64,000 nucleotides of DNA from Pomphorhynchus laevis (taxonomy: Eukaryota; Acanthocephala; Palaeacanthocephala; Echinorhynchida; Pomphorhynchidae). Within the stretch, counting starts at the first letter, position 1; the number at the start of each line of letters is the position of its first letter. The notes beneath the pieces are model-generated. The model did no database searches and was not told where the DNA came from. It saw nothing but the letters and a program-made list of their open reading frames with translations. Below are positions 9,001 through 63,740 of the stretch, piece after piece. The DNA is taken from positions 62,001 through 126,000 of the forward strand of contig WNNJ02000687.1 in the NCBI GenBank assembly GCA_012934845.2. The letters run 5' to 3'. The position numbers were made by a program, and so were the translations under genes.

Positions 9001-9719
9001 ATTTGTAGAGAATTCCTGGAATTTGCAGACATTTCAGTGTTAATTTTCAAATCGATTGAACCACCTCAAACACTGCTTAATATTTATGCGACGATACTTG
9101 ATGTATTAGTCATTAAATATATGAAAATATATATTTAAATGATTAAAATATATTTAAATGGTTAAAATTAATCATTTACCACTTTTGCCGATTTACCAAA
9201 ATTAATGTATTAAATATTAATAAAAATAAATTTTAGATCACCAAACGTCATGCTTTTTGGAAATACTAATTTTATTAAATTAATAATGACAGACAAATTT
9301 AAATCATTAAAAGTAAATTTCGATTTATTTTTCTTTTATTTTCAAAAATAAAAGTGTCTTCTTTTATTTGTTATTATTGCATGACAAATTTCTGAGCAGT
9401 GCTCAAGTTGTATTATATTGATTAAAGATAAAAAAGTATTAAATAGGAGCACTGAATTACAGCGTAGTAGCTTTTTTATTCTGTTTTATGTGATTTAAGA
9501 TATTTTGCTTTCACTCAAACGATTTAATCGATTCACAAACCGTGGTCGAAATGTCTGCTTCTTTTAAAATCTTGTTATTTCACTAAATAAACGTTTTGAG
9601 TACTTTCGAAGTGATCGTGATCTGAGGAGAAATATTTTCCACAAATCTGATTATGAATATGCAATATATACCAATCTAAACAAATTTCTCTACAATCAAA
9701 TAATGCCCGAATCGAATGG
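9000..9719. other. AT-rich spacer, no feature recognised
   Basis: Short A/T-rich words and many stops in every frame. I see no RNA gene, repeat unit or ORF that I can support. Confidence 0.5.
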
Positions 9720-9855
9720 AATCCCAATGTCTGAAGCTTCTCGTTATATGATAGACGAGATTGATTGGTTCATTGTTCGGCGTAATAATTTTTCTAACAA
9801 GTTATACTAACGTCTAGTCTTGAGATTCAGACAATGAGACGCGAATAGAAAATGG
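9720..9855. repeat. Left copy of a ~136-bp direct repeat flanking the gypsy element
   Basis: Starts ATCCCAATGTCTGAAGC and runs to GACGCGAATAG. It recurs at 16012-16147 with a handful of substitutions. Both copies lie outside the LTRs, at different distances from them (16 bp on the left, 77 bp on the right). They are therefore neither LTR sequence nor a normal target-site duplication. Confidence 0.85.
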
Positions 9856-9871
9856 CTGAGAATGTGGGTAT

Positions 9872-9943
9872 TTGAACCGAGGCGAACAACAACAAAAGGC
9901 TTTATGCGAACATCTGAAAACATAACATATAAATATCAGTACA
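9872..9943 (-). repeat. 3' LTR of the gypsy element (72 bp)
   Basis: In element orientation it begins TGTACTGATATT and ends CTCGGTTCAA, with the TG...CA type of ends. It is identical to the copy at 15863-15934. A purine tract GGGAGAA lies immediately before it and is the plus-strand primer (PPT). The stop codon of pol lies inside this LTR (9936-9938). Confidence 0.88.
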
Positions 9944-10174: not shown

Positions 10175-12271
10175 TCAATCGTCCATCTGGCAATTTTGAG
10201 ATATGTTGGATTCTTCGAATACATTTTGATTACAGTTATTGGGAGCTAGATATTGAGTTGAAATGTGAGTCTCTTTTCCATTAGGGTATCGAACTAGAGC
10301 GTAGTTCTCGTTGGCATGAATAAGCTCTGCGCGATCTACAAGTGGATCGTTTTTACTAATACGGTTGAAATTCTTTACAAAGATAGGTCCAGGATTGATT
10401 AACCACTCAGGTAAGCTGACTCCCTTAGCTGATCTGCGATTGAATTTGAATATACGTTCATGAGGCGTTTCATTAGTCGAAGTGCATAAAAGAGATCTGA
10501 TCGAATGAAGTTCCTTTTGAAGTGTTGTTTCCCACCGTTCGATTGGAATCTTATTATTATGATGATACAACCGTATCGCGTTCCATATCAACCCGTTATA
10601 GCGCTCAATCTGGCCATTTGAGGTAGGATGGTAGGGAGTGGAATATGATAGCGTGATTCCCAATGTCAATAAATATTTACGGAACTCTACTGACGTGAAA
10701 GAAGTACCCCGATCGGTATGGATATTCTCAGGCGTGCCAAATAATGCGAACAACGACTCAAGACACTGAATTACCGATCGAGAACTGGTGTCAGCACAGG
10801 GAAACCCAAAGGGAAATCGGCTATATTCATCTACTATAGATAAAATATATCTTTTCTTACTCGAGCTGGGCAGCGGGCCTTTAAAATCTAAGGACAAACG
10901 CTCCCATGGTTTACTGGCTTTAATCAAGGTACTTCGAGGGGGTTTATAAAAGTGAGCTTTCAATTCGTTGCAGCTAGGACAACCTTTGATGACTTTTCTA
11001 ACATCTTCAATAGAATACGGAAAATTTCGATGACGTACATAGTGCCACATCCTTGTTACCCCAGGGTGACACAAATGATCATGCATCCTTTCGAATTCTT
11101 TTAAATCACTCGTGACTGATCCTAAAGCAATTCGAGACATACCGTCAGCTACCTGATTTTCTTTGCCGCATCGATATGACACGGCGAACTGATATTCGGA
11201 CAATTCTATTCTCCAACGATTGATTTTGTCATTTTTGATCTTACTGTAATGTTTATTTGAGAGCAAAAATGCCACGGATTGTTGATCCGTCAGAACGGTG
11301 AAATGTCTACAGGATAAATAGTGACGCCAGTATCTTATAGATTCTACTATGGCTAGTGCCTCTTTCTCAACAGCTGCATATTTCATTGCGTTCTTATCCA
11401 GAGTACGTGAGAAGAATGCGACTGGTTTAAAATTTTGAGACAAAGTAGCACCGATCGCAAAGGCAGATGCGTCTGTCTCGACCACGAATGGGACTGAGAA
11501 ATCTACTTTAGACAATGTAGTTGATGCAAGGCTGTGTTTCAGACTTGCAAATGATTCTTTTGCATGAAGAGACAGCGGAAAAGATACAGTTTGTGCTAAA
11601 GGTCGAACGACATTTGAAAAATTCTTTATCCATCGAGAATAGTGTACGAACATTCCTATAATACGTTTAAGTTCGACTAATGATTTTGGCTCAGGCATTT
11701 CCAATAAGGGTTTGACACGATCAGGGTCAGGTGAAATGTAACCGTTATCTATTTGGTAGCCAAGAAAATATACCTTAGAGACTCCGAAAATACATTTTGA
11801 CGTATTTAAAGTGATATTATATTTCTTAGCAACTTCTAAGAAGCGATCAAGATTCCTTTGGTGAAGTTCCTTTGTTTCACCGCCGATAATAACATCATCC
11901 AAATAAGCGTACGTAGATTCAAGATCCTCTTCCTCGATTAACTTAGCGATGATACGTTGGAAAGCCGCCACTGCATTTGTCAATCCGAACGGTAGGCGTT
12001 TAAATTGGTACAAACGACCATTAGCTTCAAATGCAGTGTAATGCCTCTCATTCTCCTGAATGGGAACCTGATGATAAGCATTCTTTAGGTCTAATCGACT
12101 GAAACTTTTGAATGGAGATAGCTTATCAATGAATTCGTCAATCCTGGGAAGAGGGAAGTCGTCAAGATGAGTGAATCGATTCACCGTCAAACTATAATCT
12201 ATTACCATTCGCACTTCGCGACCAGGATTCTTAACCAGGACAACTTGTGCACGCCACGGAGACGTGCTATT
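10175..12271 (-). CDS. pol: Gypsy Pol: reverse transcriptase, RNase H, integrase
   Basis: One open frame of about 680 aa from the first Met at 12214; the same frame is open back to the TAG at 12272-12274. RT motifs: RMVIDYS, LDLKNAYHQVP, FKRLPFGLTNA and YLDDVIIGG (catalytic YxDD). The RNase H region carries VETDASAFAIG and EALAIVESIRYWRHYL. The integrase carries an H/C zinc-binding part (HDHLCHPGVTR, then CPSCNELK) and a catalytic core with Asp at SLDFKGPLP, Asp at HTDRGTSF and Glu at NGQIERYNG, so all three catalytic acids are present. It copies element RNA and inserts the DNA. The region before the first Met (NSTSPWRAQ, NPGREV) is normal RT N-terminus, so Pol is expressed as Gag-Pol. Confidence 0.9.
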   Translation of the reverse strand, partial: NSTSPWRAQVVLVKNPGREVRMVIDYSLTVNRFTHLDDFPLPRIDEFIDKLSPFKSFSRLDLKNAYHQVPIQENERHYTAFEANGRLYQFKRLPFGLTNAVAAFQRIIAKLIEEEDLESTYAYLDDVIIGGETKELHQRNLDRFLEVAKKYNITLNTSKCIFGVSKVYFLGYQIDNGYISPDPDRVKPLLEMPEPKSLVELKRIIGMFVHYSRWIKNFSNVVRPLAQTVSFPLSLHAKESFASLKHSLASTTLSKVDFSVPFVVETDASAFAIGATLSQNFKPVAFFSRTLDKNAMKYAAVEKEALAIVESIRYWRHYLSCRHFTVLTDQQSVAFLLSNKHYSKIKNDKINRWRIELSEYQFAVSYRCGKENQVADGMSRIALGSVTSDLKEFERMHDHLCHPGVTRMWHYVRHRNFPYSIEDVRKVIKGCPSCNELKAHFYKPPRSTLIKASKPWERLSLDFKGPLPSSSKKRYILSIVDEYSRFPFGFPCADTSSRSVIQCLESLFALFGTPENIHTDRGTSFTSVEFRKYLLTLGITLSYSTPYHPTSNGQIERYNGLIWNAIRLYHHNNKIPIERWETTLQKELHSIRSLLCTSTNETPHERIFKFNRRSAKGVSLPEWLINPGPIFVKNFNRISKNDPLVDRAELIHANENYALVRYPNGKETHISTQYLAPNNCNQNVFEESNISQNCQMDD

Positions 12272-13453
12272 CTAGATGATACTGGAATCTAATAGACGTT
12301 TTACCTCGGCTGCGATAAAACAGTTATCTTCTGGAGTTCTTCGACGAGATGGAATTGCAACAGGTTTTACCGCTTTGTCTAGGAATTGAAATAGAGACGG
12401 AGCTTCAACTTTCATTTCCCCAACACCTGCAACAACGACCAAAGGACGTTCTACTCCGTTGAATTCTATGGTCACTGTCGAGTGTTGACGAAGAAAGGGT
12501 ACACCGAGGATCACATCTGTTACTAGGGTGGGGAGAATGAAGAATTTTACATTTCGATAGAAACGATTGTTTAAAACAACATCGGCGAATGTACAATGTC
12601 TTAACTCATAGGAAAATTCAGATGCAGCGAGAGAAACTTTTAAATTTGTGGATATTCTCACAAGCTTGCACTTAGTAGCGACATCACTTCTGACAATATT
12701 AAATGAACTTCCAGAATCGATCATCCCGCTTACTAAGATATTATTCAAACTTATAGTGGGCTGTATTAAGTTTGATGATGACGCGTTTGTTGTGCTTATT
12801 GAATATAAAGACGCAGACGTACCAGAATTTCTTGAACGGCACATGTTAGAAAAGTGTCCTTTCTTGCTGCACGTATGACAGGTAGCGTTGCGAGCAATAC
12901 AGTTACTCCGCACGTGGCGGTTTCGACCGCAAAAGTAGCATCGCTCTTGACTTTTGATTGCGGAACATTCTTGTTGTGTTTCCGAATCATCTCTGGGTAA
13001 ATTTGTCAACTGCGGTGGATTAGCATAGTTAATCATAGATTCCATATTTTCAGATTGAGTGATATCCCGTGAAGATAACCGGAATTCCGATGCTTCAGCC
13101 TGTGCCAACTCGATTGATCGAGCGATCCGATAAGCACTCTCTTTGTTAAGATCGACGGTTTCAAGTAGACGTTCTCTGATCGATGTGGAAATAATTCCAG
13201 CCACAAAAGTATCCAACAACAAAGAATCTCGATGTTCTCGTGAAGTTACATCTTTGAACTTGATTTGACGGGCAACGGATTCTGTCGTTTGAATGAACTG
13301 GTCGATTGTCTGGTTTTCGGCTTGCTTCAAATTATGCAGCTGATGTCTTGCATATACATCTCCCCTGTCCTTTATAAAACTTCTACTTAACGTATCGATC
13401 GCGATATCATAATCATCGACTCCTTCGATGATATCATAAAGGATTGGAGAGAT
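12272..13453 (-). CDS. gag-pro: Gypsy Gag (C-terminal part) and protease, ending at a single TAG
   Basis: The open frame 13330-12272 can be read upstream to the LINE junction at 13453 (YDIIEGVDDYDIAI). Domains in order are capsid-like, a zinc knuckle (CYFCGRNRHVRSNC) followed by a second (CHTCSKKGHFSNMC), and an aspartic protease with active site MIDSGSSFNIV. The frame ends at TAG 12272-12274 within SSII/NSTSPWRAQ. Gypsy proteins usually have Gln or Glu at this spot, and Pol follows in the same frame. The TAG is therefore probably a C-to-T nonsense change, though a read-through stop is possible. Confidence 0.85.
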   Translation of the reverse strand: MSPILYDIIEGVDDYDIAIDTLSRSFIKDRGDVYARHQLHNLKQAENQTIDQFIQTTESVARQIKFKDVTSREHRDSLLLDTFVAGIISTSIRERLLETVDLNKESAYRIARSIELAQAEASEFRLSSRDITQSENMESMINYANPPQLTNLPRDDSETQQECSAIKSQERCYFCGRNRHVRSNCIARNATCHTCSKKGHFSNMCRSRNSGTSASLYSISTTNASSSNLIQPTISLNNILVSGMIDSGSSFNIVRSDVATKCKLVRISTNLKVSLAASEFSYELRHCTFADVVLNNRFYRNVKFFILPTLVTDVILGVPFLRQHSTVTIEFNGVERPLVVVAGVGEMKVEAPSLFQFLDKAVKPVAIPSRRRTPEDNCFIAAEVKRLLDSSII

Positions 13454-15687
13454 CCTTTACCATTATCTACACCAAGTCGACCCTGGAAGCTTCTCGATAT
13501 CCCTATTCTCTGCACATCCTTACTCAATTCTTCACTCTTTTCACTTCCTCTTAACTATCTCTCTCCCGATGATCTCTGCATTCTGTTTGATTCTGAACTT
13601 ACGTCGATCCTCAATAACCTTCTACCTAGTCGACTTCGACGTTCCCAGCGCTTGCGCCATGCTCCCTGGTTCGATTCTGACTGTAGTCTTTCTAAGCGTC
13701 GACTCCGTCACTCTTTTCGTATGTATAAACGCTTTCTTAAACGTTCACCGAACTCACTCCCTCCAAATCTTCGTGATTCCTACTTTTCTCAACGCCGTTC
13801 ACATCTCATTCTTATACGTACTAAACGTACTCTCTTTTGGCGAAATCAACTCGAGTCATCTTCCAACTCGAAATCTCATTGGAAAATCTTAAACACAATT
13901 CTTTCACGATCATCTACCCCTTGTAATATAAATCCTGATGAATTTTCTTCTTATCTACAAACTAAGCTATCTAATTTACTTTCCCTACTACCCATAGCCC
14001 CCTTGTACCCACTCTTATCTTTAAATACTTCCCTCCCAGAACTATTCCACCTTCTTCCCGTTTCGTCTGATGAAGTTTCTTCGGTTCTGCTGTCATTACC
14101 TAATAAAACCTCTCCTTCTGACCCAATTTCCACTCACTTACTTAAAAATATCTGCACTTTTATCTTACCCTTCCTAACCACATTGTTCAACTCGTCCATC
14201 CGTAGCTGTACATTTCCTTCCATCTGGAAATGCGCCACTGTTCGTCCTATCATCAAAAAGCAATCTCTCGACTCTTCACTACCATCTTCGTACCGTCCAA
14301 TCTCACTTCTCCCAACCCTCTCTAAACTCCTTGAGCGTCTCGTTCTTAAGCAAGTTAATACATATCTCTATTCCTCTAACTTATTTCCTCCCTTCCAAGC
14401 CGCTTTTCGCTCTAATTACTCTACCGAAATTGCATGTCTTAAAGTTTATAACGACTTACTCATATCGCGCGATCATAAATTATGTAGTGTCATAGTTTCT
14501 CTTGATCTATCGTCTGCTTTTGACATCGTCGATCACTCGATTCTTCTCCATCGCCTTCGTCATGATTATGGCTTCTCTTTACCCACTGTATCATGGTTTT
14601 CTTCATATCTATCAAACCGTACATTTCGCGTATATTCTAACTCTTCTCTCTCCCATCCTTCGTCCATTCCGTCCGGTGTTCCGCAAGGCTCCGTATTAGG
14701 CCCTATACTTTTCTCTCTTCTTCTTGGTGATTTGTCTTTGATTTCTCATAAATTTAACTTCCATGCTATGCAATATGCTGATGACATTCTCATATATGCT
14801 CATGAACCTGTTTATCGTATTCGCGATCTTAGTGTTTCTGCTTCCGACTGTCTTGTCTCAATTTCCAATCATCTTTCTTCCCTTCGCCTTTCTCTGAATC
14901 CTGATAAATCCAAAATTATGTGGATCCTACCTCGACGCCTCGGCTTCGAACCTCCCTCCGTATCATTTAATTCTACAATTCTTCCTATCGTTGATAATCT
15001 CGTATTCCTAGGCTTCCATTTTAACTTTCACTTAAACCTTTCGTTAGAGATAAAGTACGCTCATCTACCTTGATACTCCGCAACCTCCGTCAAGTTCGTA
15101 GATTGATCGATTTCCCTTCTTGTATGACTCTCATATCATCTCTTCTTTTTTCTAGACTCGATTATTGTCTTAGTCTATTTTCCAACTCACCTAAATCCAC
15201 TCTTCTTCCCCTACAACGCATCGTCAACGCAGCTGTCCGAATTCTCCTCCGTCTTCGTCGTTTTGATCACACATCCTACCATCTTGCTTCTCTCCATTTG
15301 CCTACAATTTATTGTCGTGTTCAAATTCGTCTTCTTATCGTTGCTTTCCGCCTTGTAACTTTTCATACCCCTTCATTTTTTCAACCTTCCTTTTCTTGAT
15401 AATTCTCGTCCTGTTTACTGTTACTTGCGTTCCTGTAATTCCCTCCTTTTACATGTCCCAAACTACTCTACCTCCTTTGGACTCCGCTCCTTTCTGGTGG
15501 CTGCTCCTCTATCGTGGAACCATCTGCCCATTCATATACGCCAATCAACTTCCCTGCAGTGCTTCAAACGACAAATCCGATCCCATCTGAACAATTTAAC
15601 TGCTTGACTTTCTCATTTTTGTTTGTGGACTTGTAAGCGTACAGCTTGTACGCATTTGCCACATTAAATAAATTTGTATTATTATTA
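13454..15687 (+). mobile_element. Family A (CR1/L2-like) LINE inserted in gypsy gag, 5'-truncated
   Basis: On the plus strand it contains the end of the endonuclease region (PRPWKLLDIP-like, near 13480), the whole RT and a short 3' UTR ending in ATTATTATTAT. Removing it rejoins gag exactly (LLINHI to SPILYDII), with at most an AT dinucleotide duplicated, which proves that this is an insertion. The 3' UTR holds the family stem-loop (GCGTAC, loop, GTACGC at 15637-15653). The tail is a microsatellite rather than poly(A), as is common in the CR1/L2 group. Confidence 0.9.
13652..15399 (+). pseudogene. Reverse transcriptase ORF of family A LINE, one frameshift
   Basis: Open from about 13652 to 15073 and then, after a 7-bp deletion near 15024 (the place where other copies read FDNRLS), continued in another frame at 15070-15399 (LRNLRQVRRLIDF). 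RT motifs: SSYRPISLLPTLSKLLE, SLDLSSAFDIVDH, GVPQGSVLGP, MQYADDILIY (YADD intact) and LSLNPDKSKIMW. The N-terminal part is rich in Arg and Ser. It would prime reverse transcription at nicked DNA. The single frameshift makes this copy inactive, but it is otherwise well kept. Confidence 0.85.
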
Positions 15688-15844
15688 TATGGTTGATCAG
15701 AAGGTCAAGCTTTTGTTGGTTTGTGACATCTTCAAGAACTCGTACAATCGCATCGAATCTTTGTAGCCAATGACGCCAAACTTTTGCCGAATCAATCCCA
15801 TCGGTTGAAGCATCTAGGATCGCTGGTTTGAGTAGCTTGTCCAT
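15688..15844 (-). CDS. gag: N-terminus of gypsy Gag, cut off by the LINE insertion
   Basis: The frame starts at ATG 15844-15842 with MDKLLKPAILD and runs to LLINHI at the LINE junction. It continues beyond the insertion at 13453 in the same frame. Motifs such as KVWRHWLQRF match the start of Mag/gypsy capsid proteins. The ATG is only a few bases after the primer-site complement, so the leader is nearly absent. Confidence 0.8.
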
Positions 15845-15849
15845 TCACA

Positions 15850-15862
15850 ATGTTCGCATAAA
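15850..15862 (-). promoter_or_regulatory. Putative self-primer binding site, complementary to LTR
   Basis: In element orientation the bases directly after the 5' LTR are TTTATGCGAACAT. The LTR itself holds ATGTTCGCATAAA (plus-strand 15892-15904), a perfect 13-nt complement 29 nt away. The site lacks the TGG that a tRNA 3' CCA end would need. Its position is exactly where minus-strand synthesis should start. Tf1 and sushi elements prime with their own folded 5' RNA end in this layout. That this element does so is an inference from position and pairing. Confidence 0.65.
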
Positions 15863-15934
15863 TTGAACCGAGGCGAACAACAACAAAAGGCTTTATGCGA
15901 ACATCTGAAAACATAACATATAAATATCAGTACA
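15863..15934 (-). repeat. 5' LTR of the gypsy element (72 bp)
   Basis: Identical by eye to 9872-9943. In element orientation about 30 nt precede ATGTTCGCATAAA, including a TATA-like TATTTATATG and TTTTCAG. This would leave a U3 of about 30 nt and R-U5 of about 42 nt if transcription starts at or just before that 13-mer. A word, AGTACAGCTTAAAA, is duplicated across the outer edge (15929 and about 15947). Confidence 0.88.
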
Positions 15935-16011
15935 GCTTAAAAAAAGTACAGCTTAAAATTGGGATTTTAATAGGGATAAAAATCCTATTTAATAGGGATT
16001 TTAATAGGGAT

Positions 16012-16147
16012 CCCAATGTTTAAAGCTTCTCGTTATATGATAGACGAGATTGATTGGTTCATTGCCCGGCGTAATAATTTTTCTAACAAGTTATACTAAC
16101 GTCTAGTCTTGGGATTCATACAATGAGACGCGAATAGTAAATGGTGG
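16012..16147. repeat. Right copy of the ~136-bp direct repeat flanking the gypsy element
   Basis: Matches 9720-9855. It is preceded by short tandem words of ATTTTAATAGGG (about 15966-16012). Confidence 0.85.
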
Positions 16148-16189
16148 GGGATGGTGATTTTTTTGATAATACTGCTTATATGTACGATC

Positions 16190-61300: not shown

Positions 61301-63740
61301 ATGCAGAGTAATCGTGAGCCTTTTTCACTGAATATCCTTCAGTGGTATTCGGGAGGTGCTTCTGCCCTTAGATTTCTATCCAGTAGAGATGCAGATGTTA
61401 TAGTCCTCGAAGAGACGCGGTCTATCCGTCTACCCCAGGACATTACTCGAATTACCCCAAAGCATGTATATTCCCACTATACTCCGTACATGACTCCTCC
61501 TCACTCCTCTTCATCTCAAGGACTCTTAACCTTAATTAAGTGTTACTTAAGGTCCTCCCTCCTATTAAACTATTCATGTCCAGCCATGTCTTGTTTAGTA
61601 GTTTCACTCTGTAAGAACGGTAAACGCCTCAGTCTAGCCAATGTCTACATCCGTCCTGGGGAGATACACAAGAACCGTGTCACCCTAGATAGTATTATCG
61701 ACAGCGGTTACGACATGATACTTGGAGATTTCAACGACAGAACTGGTCGTTGGATCAATGCAGCACTTCGCAGAGCTAGGAACGGTTATCTTATTCACAA
61801 ACCACCTTCCCCTACCTTTCATTGCATATCAACAAATTCAGTCCTCGATATTTTACTGCTTCACTCGAGGTGGTTGTTAAAGCCCCTCTGCACAGAGCAA
61901 TCGCGCCAGCAATTGTCCACCTCTCATGACCTAATTCGTTGGAGAATTGAGGAAGATATGTTGCTTCAAAGAGGGTTTCACTTTGATCCGATCAGAGTGT
62001 CCTTCTTTCAAGCGGCTATCGAACTCTTTCCCAGAATATAAAATGAGAGTCTGACCGAATTTAATACCTACCTCTTTTCGCAAGCTAACGCGATTTTATC
62101 GACTACTTATAAAGGTCGTATATACAATCCCACTGCGACGAAACTCAAGGTCCTAGCGAAATTGCTGAACGTCCCTAATATCTATGTTTCCGCCAGACAG
62201 GCTCTCTCGAATGAATACTGGAGCAACTAGATATAGGTTCCAGCTGAGTAAGGATAGGACGAGTATTGCTCGCCTTAGTCCTTCTCAGTCTTCCTTTTGG
62301 AAGATTTTCAAAAAGAAGTTTGTTTGCTGGAAGGATAGAGCATTGAGTTGGATAGGGAATGTAGGCCTTGATAAAGTTTTGGAGGAAGTCACTAGCCCTA
62401 CACAACTATGAAGCCACTCAATCACCTCAACCAATCCCGCCTTGGTGTAACTTCAGGAGTAGGGATCTATCTGTTACGGATATCCTTAACTCCTGGGGTC
62501 CACTCCCGGGCACCTCCAAATCCATCGCTCCACTTTCTTCTCGGGTCTGTCAGCTTTTGACAGCTGATCAGAGAAGAGAGGTGGCCGTCACAATGCTTTT
62601 AGCATCCCCATCCGATGTATCAGGCATCAATATTAGTAAGCGTATTTTTATTCCTAAGAAAAAATCCTGATCATGCCCTAAAGATCTGCGACCCATTTCG
62701 ATTCAAAATGCCCTCGTGCCAATTTACGAAAAAGCGCTTGCGCGTAAAATCTGCGACCATTTAAGTAGGCGTAATTTGATCCCTCCAGGTTTTTATGGGT
62801 TCGTCAAAGGACGCTCGGTCCATTCAGCAGTTGGTTAGGTCAATCAATTTTGTCGGGAGAATATCCATTGTCTTGTTGTGGCTGTTTTCATTGACTTTTC
62901 TGCTGCATTTGACCATATATCCATTCCTTTTGTGATCTCTTTTCTCAGGTCCCTTGGGTCGCCTGCGAGAATTGTGAACAGGGTGGAGATCATGCTGTAC
63001 ACCAAGCGATTTTACTATGTATACGACCCTAATGCGCGTCAGTTCTACCCTATTACAGGTGTGCCTAAAGGTTCCCCACTTTCTCCTATCTTATTTATTG
63101 CTGCCTCAATTAACTTATTCCAAATATTTAAACGCGAACAACGTCTAGTGGTGTACGCTGATGACACCACAGCCCTGTTTACTGAATACAGGTGCAAAGA
63201 CGTAGTCTCAGACATCAGCCGTTTCTTTTTAAGATTAAATGAACAGCTTCCCAAATCCAATATTATTTTAAACTCCGCCAAATCGCAGGTGGTTGTCTTT
63301 CATGGCTTCCCTGCGACGAAGCAAAAACTTAAGAGATTAGCACTCTCTGCACTTTCCTCCATTTTGCAGCTTCAACCACCTCCTACCTTTACAAGTCGAG
63401 TAAAATACCTGGGGTTCACCGTTACGGTGAACTGGTCGGCGAAAGCCGACCTGGATAGATTTAAACGTATCCTGAAGAACGCTAGGTGGGCCCTGAAACG
63501 GGCTTAACGTCTGTAATTGAAAGGGAAAATTCAGGTGCGCCTCTGGGGCACTTGGGCTATCTCGGGATTAGTCTTCTTTTCGAGAGGACGTCCCCCAGAA
63601 CAAAGGCTAAGGTTTCTTAAGCTCCTCGTCTCTCGTTTACCCAGCATAGTCCGTCTCGATTGGATTCTTCGGGGGGGGTGAAAGACCCCGGGTGGTTCAG
63701 TCGAAAGGCGGCGTGTTGGATCGGTTGGTGGGCTCAGATC
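61301..63740 (+). pseudogene. Family B ORF2: endonuclease and reverse transcriptase
   Basis: 61301-62041: endonuclease with ILQWYSGGAS (Asn of ILQWNS changed), DADVIVLEETRS, LANVYIRPGE, DMILGDFNDRTGRW (intact GDFN), NSVLDILLL and TSHDLIRW. Stop at 62041. 62184-62670 and nearby: linker and RT N-terminus (SWGPLPGTSKS, INISKRIFIPKKK). 62878-63507: FIDFSAAFDHIS, GVPKGSPLSP and LVVYADDTTALF (YADD intact), then FHGFPATKQKLKRLAL. The C-terminus continues to about 63740 in other frames (SRGRPPEQ-type near 63580). At least four lesions. Confidence 0.85.

Follow-up and report, generated by a model that had tools for sequence, protein, structure and literature searches.

Chromoviruses of the Tf1/sushi group carry a chromodomain at the C-terminus of integrase. 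Self-priming of reverse transcription has been ascribed to these elements (termed chromoviruses in PMC6317226), to several fungal elements and to a few plant groups (PMC4600332, PMC7175516, PMC6317226). In Tf1, the RNA pairs its first 11 nucleotides with the primer-binding site (PBS), and the RNase H cleavage falls between bases 11 and 12 (PMC7175516, PMC4600332). Here we describe an element of the acanthocephalan Pomphorhynchus laevis that probably primes in a comparable way. It is a compact Ty3/gypsy retrotransposon on the minus strand of a 64,000-nucleotide stretch (positions 62,001 to 126,000 of contig WNNJ02000687.1, assembly GCA_012934845.2), which we call the window and to which all coordinates refer unless another contig is named. 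As described for Tf1, Tf2 and Tj1 and for the Tf1/sushi chromoviruses, a non-tRNA PBS borders its 5' long terminal repeat (LTR) and can pair with a complementary RNA segment of that LTR. Unlike the Tf1/sushi elements, it has no chromodomain match in its pol open reading frame (ORF), it and its relatives in the same genome have very short LTRs (71-121 bp), and its homologous proteins carry the names of many animals. The complementary arms also differ from the 11 nt of Tf1 in being 12-14 nt long and in ending in a poly(A)-signal hexamer.

Similarities to other described elements are accompanied by differences. Tcn1 chromoviruses and plant TAR copia elements resemble the present element in that self-priming was predicted from their sequences, and differ from it in belonging to other clades and having plant hosts (PMC6317226). 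Most Skipper elements of Dictyostelium likewise lack TGG at the PBS; unlike the present element, Skipper is reported to be without a complementary region in the left LTR (PMC5006619). A list of animal gypsy clades has been published (PMC6238403). Like our element, the Mag lineage is described as having short LTRs and animal hosts, and its target duplications likewise measure 5 bp (PMC3286476). The PBSs of 13 Culex Mag families are assigned in that paper to tRNA-Leu, tRNA-Ser or, in one family, tRNA-Arg, whereas a tRNA PBS was found in none of the ten families described below. Measured against these Culex descriptions (PMC3286476), the window element is not a typical Mag element in its priming.

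Paired arms across ten families

The 5' LTR of the window element (15934-15864, minus strand) is followed by a single spacer base, A (15863), and then by the PBS, TTTATGCGAACAT (15862-15850, minus strand). The perfect complement of this site is the LTR arm ATGTTCGCATAAA, the proposed self-primer, which occupies LTR positions 31-43 (15892-15904, minus strand). TTTTCAG precedes it, CATAAA forms its end and GCC comes next. The 13-mer TTTATGCGAACAT accordingly occurs at 15850-15862 on the minus strand and, on the plus strand, at 15892-15904 and at 9901-9913, the last within the 3' LTR. A sequence-only reading of the window had pointed to a PBS at the LTR border, to its 13-nt complement about 30 nt from the LTR start and to the lack of TGG in the PBS. 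These observations hold, with one base separating the PBS from the LTR. The same reading gave the LTR as 72 bp. The 72-nt repeats on which this was based (15863-15934 and 9872-9943) are real and identical to each other, but the LTR itself measures 71 bp. In other copies the 3' LTR ends in ...GGTTCA followed by a variable base. Among 23 paired copies delimited by 71-bp LTRs, the 5-bp target duplication is exact in 17, matches at four of five bases in three and is absent in three. The 3' ends and the target duplications thus define a 71-bp LTR of the form TG...CA, then A, then the PBS.

Relatives were picked by similarity of pol and not by the helix. A search of the same genome with the window pol protein gave 4,997 candidates, of which 65 were scored, and 30 loci of other families were listed at 54-59% identity. 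The pol protein of a more distant relative, L039, gave 4,878 candidates, 68 of them scored, and 26 further listed loci. Stretches at the 5' end were taken for 30 of the first 30 loci and for 13 of the 26; the remaining 13 comprise 12 with the score of family H, plus C1049. Stretches at the 3' end were taken for 37 of the resulting 43. Sorted by LTR, the 43 loci form seven families (B, C, D, G, H, I and J), and the LTRs of these families and of the window family, A, are 71-121 bp long. Two more families come from a pol-alignment scan of prokaryote contigs: E (L039, JAAESD010000556.1, 50% identity) and F (L040, JABSRZ010000027.1, 49%) are on contigs filed in bacterial metagenome-assembled genomes. 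Their terminal overlaps of 145 or 155 bases are as expected for single-LTR circles of eukaryotic elements, and both are probably eukaryotic gypsy circles contaminating the bacterial genomes.

A helix can form in all ten families despite their different arm letters, with 12-14 Watson-Crick pairs in nine and 10 in one. In nine of the ten its first pair involves post-LTR base 2, behind a one-base spacer. The LTR arm and PBS are ATGTTGAATAAA and TTTATTCAACAT in family B (12 Watson-Crick pairs), TGTATTAGAATAAA and TTTATTCTAATACA in C (14), ATTCGTGAATAAAA and TTTTATTCACGAAT in the single locus of D (14), ATGTTTTCAATAAA and TTTATTGAAAACAT in G (14), ATAGTTGAATAAA and TTTATTCAACTAT in H (13), and ATTGATAAATAAA and TTTATTTATCAAT in I (13). 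Family J pairs ATTGTTCAAATAAA with TTTATTTGAATAAT over 10 Watson-Crick pairs, or 15 when G-U pairs are counted, and family E pairs TATTGTTGATTAAA with TTTAATCAACAATA over 14 nt. In family F, TAATGTAATAAAA pairs with TTTTATTACATTA at post-LTR position 11 over a 13-nt core, and an extra 8-bp stretch (GTAGTATT with AATACTAC) carries the split helix to the LTR border. Both arms are exactly those of their own family in 39 of the 43 relative loci. The sole change in C3037 is a PBS C to T, which gives a G-U pair; an arm is missing in the other three (C3112 and C1673, with no LTR in the stretch taken, and C69, with a decayed PBS).

Within a family, PBS and LTR match over 10-14 nt, while the 90 cross-family pairs match over a mean of 6.5 nt and a maximum of 11. 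Pairing position by position was compared in nine families, those whose helix begins at post-LTR position 2; F is off register and was omitted. Pairs 1-10 are Watson-Crick in 9/9 families, with up to four pair types per position, and across pairs 5-14 Watson-Crick pairing fills 84 of 90 cells. Among all 362,880 arm-to-PBS assignments only the true one attains 84, and the runner-up attains 81; the register for this comparison was chosen after the helices had been seen. These data show that arm pairing has been maintained by two-sided changes across ten families. For family A, shuffling the LTR produced the exact 13-mer arm in 0 of 20,000 trials. Over 2,000 shuffles, complementarity to the 25 nt past the LTR reached 10 nt at most, against 13 observed.

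Covariation had been proposed as a check on the window copy, and the outcome depends on the level of comparison: it is strong between the ten families and uninformative within family A. A DNA search of the same genome gave 94 candidate copies of family A, of which 40 5' ends were scored, and both arms are unchanged in 33 of these. The 40 copies are 95-100% alike over the compared stretch, too alike for covariation within the family to decide, and their few arm changes are all uncompensated. We therefore rejected within-family covariation as a test.

Primer-binding sites and host tRNA genes

The first 8 nt of the PBS lack TGG in 10/10 families. We compared the ten PBSs with 20 sampled host tRNA genes representing eight amino acids (Lys, Thr, Cys, Arg, Trp, Phe, Ser and Met). 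This sample contains no 3'-anchored match to any of the ten, and the best match anywhere in a gene spans 5-8 nt. The comparison with host tRNA 3' ends suggested by the sequence-only reading thus agrees with its proposal. That reading had also named the copies that would speak against it, those with a tRNA-matching PBS and no complement in the LTR, and none was seen among 83 clade loci. Both arms are exact in 72 of the 83; in the other 11 an arm is changed, decayed or outside the stretch taken.

Two other gypsy families of the same genome served as controls, K (C82, L182, LTR 194) and L (C766, L184, LTR about 219), both with TGGCGACGAGGG at the LTR border. Self-complementarity between LTR and border is at most 7 nt in these families, and the 20 sampled tRNA genes match their sites over 5 nt from the 3' end. 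An 18-nt gene start was used to seek tRNA-Ser(GCT) genes, and seven were found. One of them (L192), with CCA added, matches K over 14 nt and L over 18 nt. Matches of the other six span 3 nt, their ARAGORN ends lying one base further out than what we read as the true end. Families K and L carry a PBS of the tRNA-Ser(GCT) type, unlike the ten self-complementary families. For a third control, M (C3126), the stretch taken contains no LTR. The open frame of family K begins within the LTR and runs through the PBS, and this family has many same-score loci with frames of up to 1394 aa.

The control families were found using L041 (NZ_CP087956.1) as query. Filed as a 5.3-kb 'plasmid' in a Wolbachia record from a moth, this sequence encodes gypsy-type protease, reverse transcriptase, RNase H and an integrase-like region, and it looks like a host retrotransposon rather than a plasmid. 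Other plasmid and phage records gave distant gypsy or transposase matches only, and DNA of the relatives was confirmed in none of the viral contigs.

Putative priming mechanism and its rivals

At the 3' end of the LTR arm stands AATAAA in eight families, ATTAAA in E and CATAAA in A, with one extra A after the AATAAA of D and F. The bases that follow are GCC, ACC, GCT or GAT, and TGG in F. A YAG/A motif behind a T-rich run precedes the arm in nine of ten families, F being the exception; the helix begins three bases past the AG in E and one base past it in C. From the arm end to the LTR end is 24-50 nt. This arrangement suggests that transcripts may begin at YAG/A and that the hexamer may be the poly(A) signal. 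The T-rich YAG/A also resembles a 3' splice site, and we considered a spliced leader or cis-splicing as a possible source of the RNA 5' end. When RNA was folded from the arm onward, the full helix was predicted in three families (z -2.85 for A, -2.21 for E and -3.97 for F).

We propose that the element's own RNA is the primer for minus-strand DNA synthesis, a reading to which we assign a probability of about 0.86. Transcription, or less likely splicing, would yield an RNA with its 5' end at YAG/A directly before the arm, and the first 13-15 nt of this RNA would fold back onto the PBS. The element's RNase H would then cleave after ...AUAAA, and the freed 3' end would be extended into U5. We infer the primer role and the cleavage after the arm by analogy with Tf1 (PMC7175516). 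The short cDNA would transfer to the matching R region at the RNA 3' end. The primer would stay on the minus strand, and plus-strand synthesis would copy it, rewriting the PBS from the LTR arm, so that the arms would stay matched while drifting. With the putative poly(A) signal at the arm's end, the helix could also hide this signal in the 5' LTR and leave the signal of the 3' LTR free. A single hexamer might in this way serve both poly(A) signalling and priming, masked by the helix only in the 5' LTR, a part of the model that we hold less firmly. Self-priming had been suggested from one copy; the covariation of arms across ten families and the tRNA comparison now support that suggestion strongly.

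Several observations weigh against self-priming or reduce the force of the evidence for it. An arm is altered or missing at seven of the 40 family A 5' ends, and compensated changes were seen in 0/40. Four of these copies have single-base changes, which fall in the PBS of L066 and L069 and in the LTR arm of L070 and L071 (these two being alike); the LTR arm of L038 has two changes, and the stretches of L073 and L074 contain no LTR. One genome supplies eight of the ten families, and D is known from one locus. Families E and F have one LTR each, with ends set by TG...CA alone, and the helix core of F, at post-LTR position 11, needs the split helix. The arms of B and H are similar, which reduces the contrast between these two families, and the J PBS matches the F LTR over 11 nt, against 10 Watson-Crick nt in its own helix. 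The observed helix length was attained in 4/2,000 and 1/500 shuffles for B, 3/2,000 and 0/500 for F, and 2/500 for J. When longer flanks are included, the helix persists in the minimum-energy fold of the window leader, at an energy no better than that of shuffles (z -0.37 and -0.41). Finally, the tRNA comparison of the ten PBSs is limited to 20 genes and eight amino acids.

Other explanations of the paired arms can be judged on the same data. Chance, or an inverted repeat retained for DNA-level reasons, is extremely improbable. Short low-complexity arms do sometimes attain such lengths in the B, F and J shuffles, but chance would have to produce the helix in ten families, at a common position in nine, with compensated letters and the best of 362,880 assignments, and the helix is absent from two control families. 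Unusual tRNA priming, by an internal fragment or at a displaced CCA site, would make the LTR complement a by-product. Half-molecule tRNAs serve some plant copia elements (PMC6317226), and family A has a TGG about 20 nt downstream. That TGG belongs to the start of the reading frame (ATGGAC), the short matches of the ten PBS regions to the sampled tRNA genes are none of them 3'-anchored, and the ten PBSs differ in letters while each matches its own LTR. We regard this explanation as very improbable.

The helix could alternatively be a regulatory hairpin that masks the 5' LTR poly(A) signal, or that controls translation or packaging, with some other primer being used. The hexamer at the arm end in 10/10 families fits this idea, as does a PBS that adjoins the 5' LTR only. 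Masking, however, needs no second arm exactly one base past the LTR, which is what 9/10 families have, and the elements would be left without any primer, the border having no TGG; we consider a purely regulatory role improbable. A trans variant of self-priming, in which an RNA would use its arm as primer at the PBS of a partner RNA within the particle, is somewhat more probable but still unlikely: the gap between arm and LTR end suits a simple hairpin, and folding predicts the cis hairpin in A, E and F. Self-priming in cis, on the element's own RNA, remains the explanation we favor.

Element anatomy, clade placement and implications

The window element has the usual features of Ty3/gypsy, with protease, reverse transcriptase, RNase H and integrase in that order, TG...CA LTRs and, in the family, a short target duplication. 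A probable gag-pol start codon (15842-15844, minus strand; MDKLLKP...) begins at 15844, 19 nt past the LTR, and tblastn matches of a related polyprotein begin at the same ATG in other copies. In one ORF (12272-13330, minus strand) the sequence shows two CCHC knuckles, and a Pfam scan identified an aspartyl protease. The 679-aa pol ORF (10175-12214, minus strand) has Pfam matches to reverse transcriptase, RNase H and integrase, and none to a chromodomain, although degenerate chromodomains could escape such a scan. The 3' LTR (9873-9943, minus strand), 71 bp and the same as the 5' LTR, is preceded by the polypurine tract TTGGGAGAA. It repeats the 13-mer of the LTR arm (9901-9913, minus strand), with CATAAA as the proposed poly(A) signal and with no adjoining PBS.

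Judged by LTR spacing, most full copies are about 3.8 kb long. The window copy measures 6.1 kb, which includes a non-LTR retrotransposon (long interspersed nuclear element, LINE) within its gag at 13652-15399 on the plus strand, in opposite orientation; Pfam places the reverse transcriptase ORF of the LINE at 13652-15073, plus strand. The window copy lacks a 5-bp target duplication (flanks TAAGC/AATAC), and a direct repeat of 156 nt at 90% identity lies on both sides of it (9718-9873 and 16007-16162). Together these features suggest insertion into a tandem repeat or later recombination.

Among the relatives, two family C elements appear head to tail with a common LTR (G000:C2747:7220-16020). 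The L039-pol search also returned 14 loci with the same score (C505, C575, C652, C786, C1256, C1523, C1663, C1997, C2091, C2149, C2154, C2175, C2785 and C3086). Nine of the 14 have a 1222-aa frame, and the LTRs of C505 and C2149 are those of family H. The shared score and these frames probably reflect a very recent spread. Elsewhere in the genome, nuclear contigs contain COX1-like stretches with stop codons (e.g. G000:C2414:99169-100213), divergent and with a top database match of 58%, which are probably nuclear copies of mitochondrial DNA.

A search for homologs of pol gave 4,064 matches among 7,982 scored. The 120 listed, with a best identity of 55%, bear the names of flukes, nematodes, copepods, insects, mussels, anemones and cartilaginous fish. 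FastTree was run on 41 pol proteins, comprising 37 of the 120 listed homologs, the window element, L039, L040 and, as outgroup, the short L041. With branch support left aside, the window element falls near the base beside a Caligus protein, E beside Actinostola and F beside two cartilaginous fish. The helix is thus known from both sides of an early split of this tree, the named homologs being represented by proteins alone.

We found no report of self-priming in a non-chromodomain animal clade in the open-access literature, a search that excluded subscription papers, Repbase notes and preprints. New here are the lack of a chromodomain match in the clade and the occurrence of its proteins across animals, the arm-ending poly(A)-signal hexamer (10/10 families) and the YAG/A before the arm (9/10). 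One could envision self-priming as the ancestral and general mode of an animal-wide compact gypsy clade that lacks a chromodomain. A single RNA segment would then be both primer and LTR poly(A) signal, and the helix would silence the 5' signal, spare the 3' signal and commit full-length RNA to self-primed copying. We offer this broader proposal tentatively, and rate it at slightly less than an even chance. If it is true clade-wide, tRNA-free priming would be a widespread animal strategy and no chromovirus oddity. Such elements would no longer depend on tRNA supply, and they would escape control by tRNA fragments of the kind described for endogenous retroviruses (PMC7472051). The overlap of primer and poly(A) signal would also provide a concrete, testable answer to how elements ignore a 5' poly(A) signal but obey the one at the 3' end.
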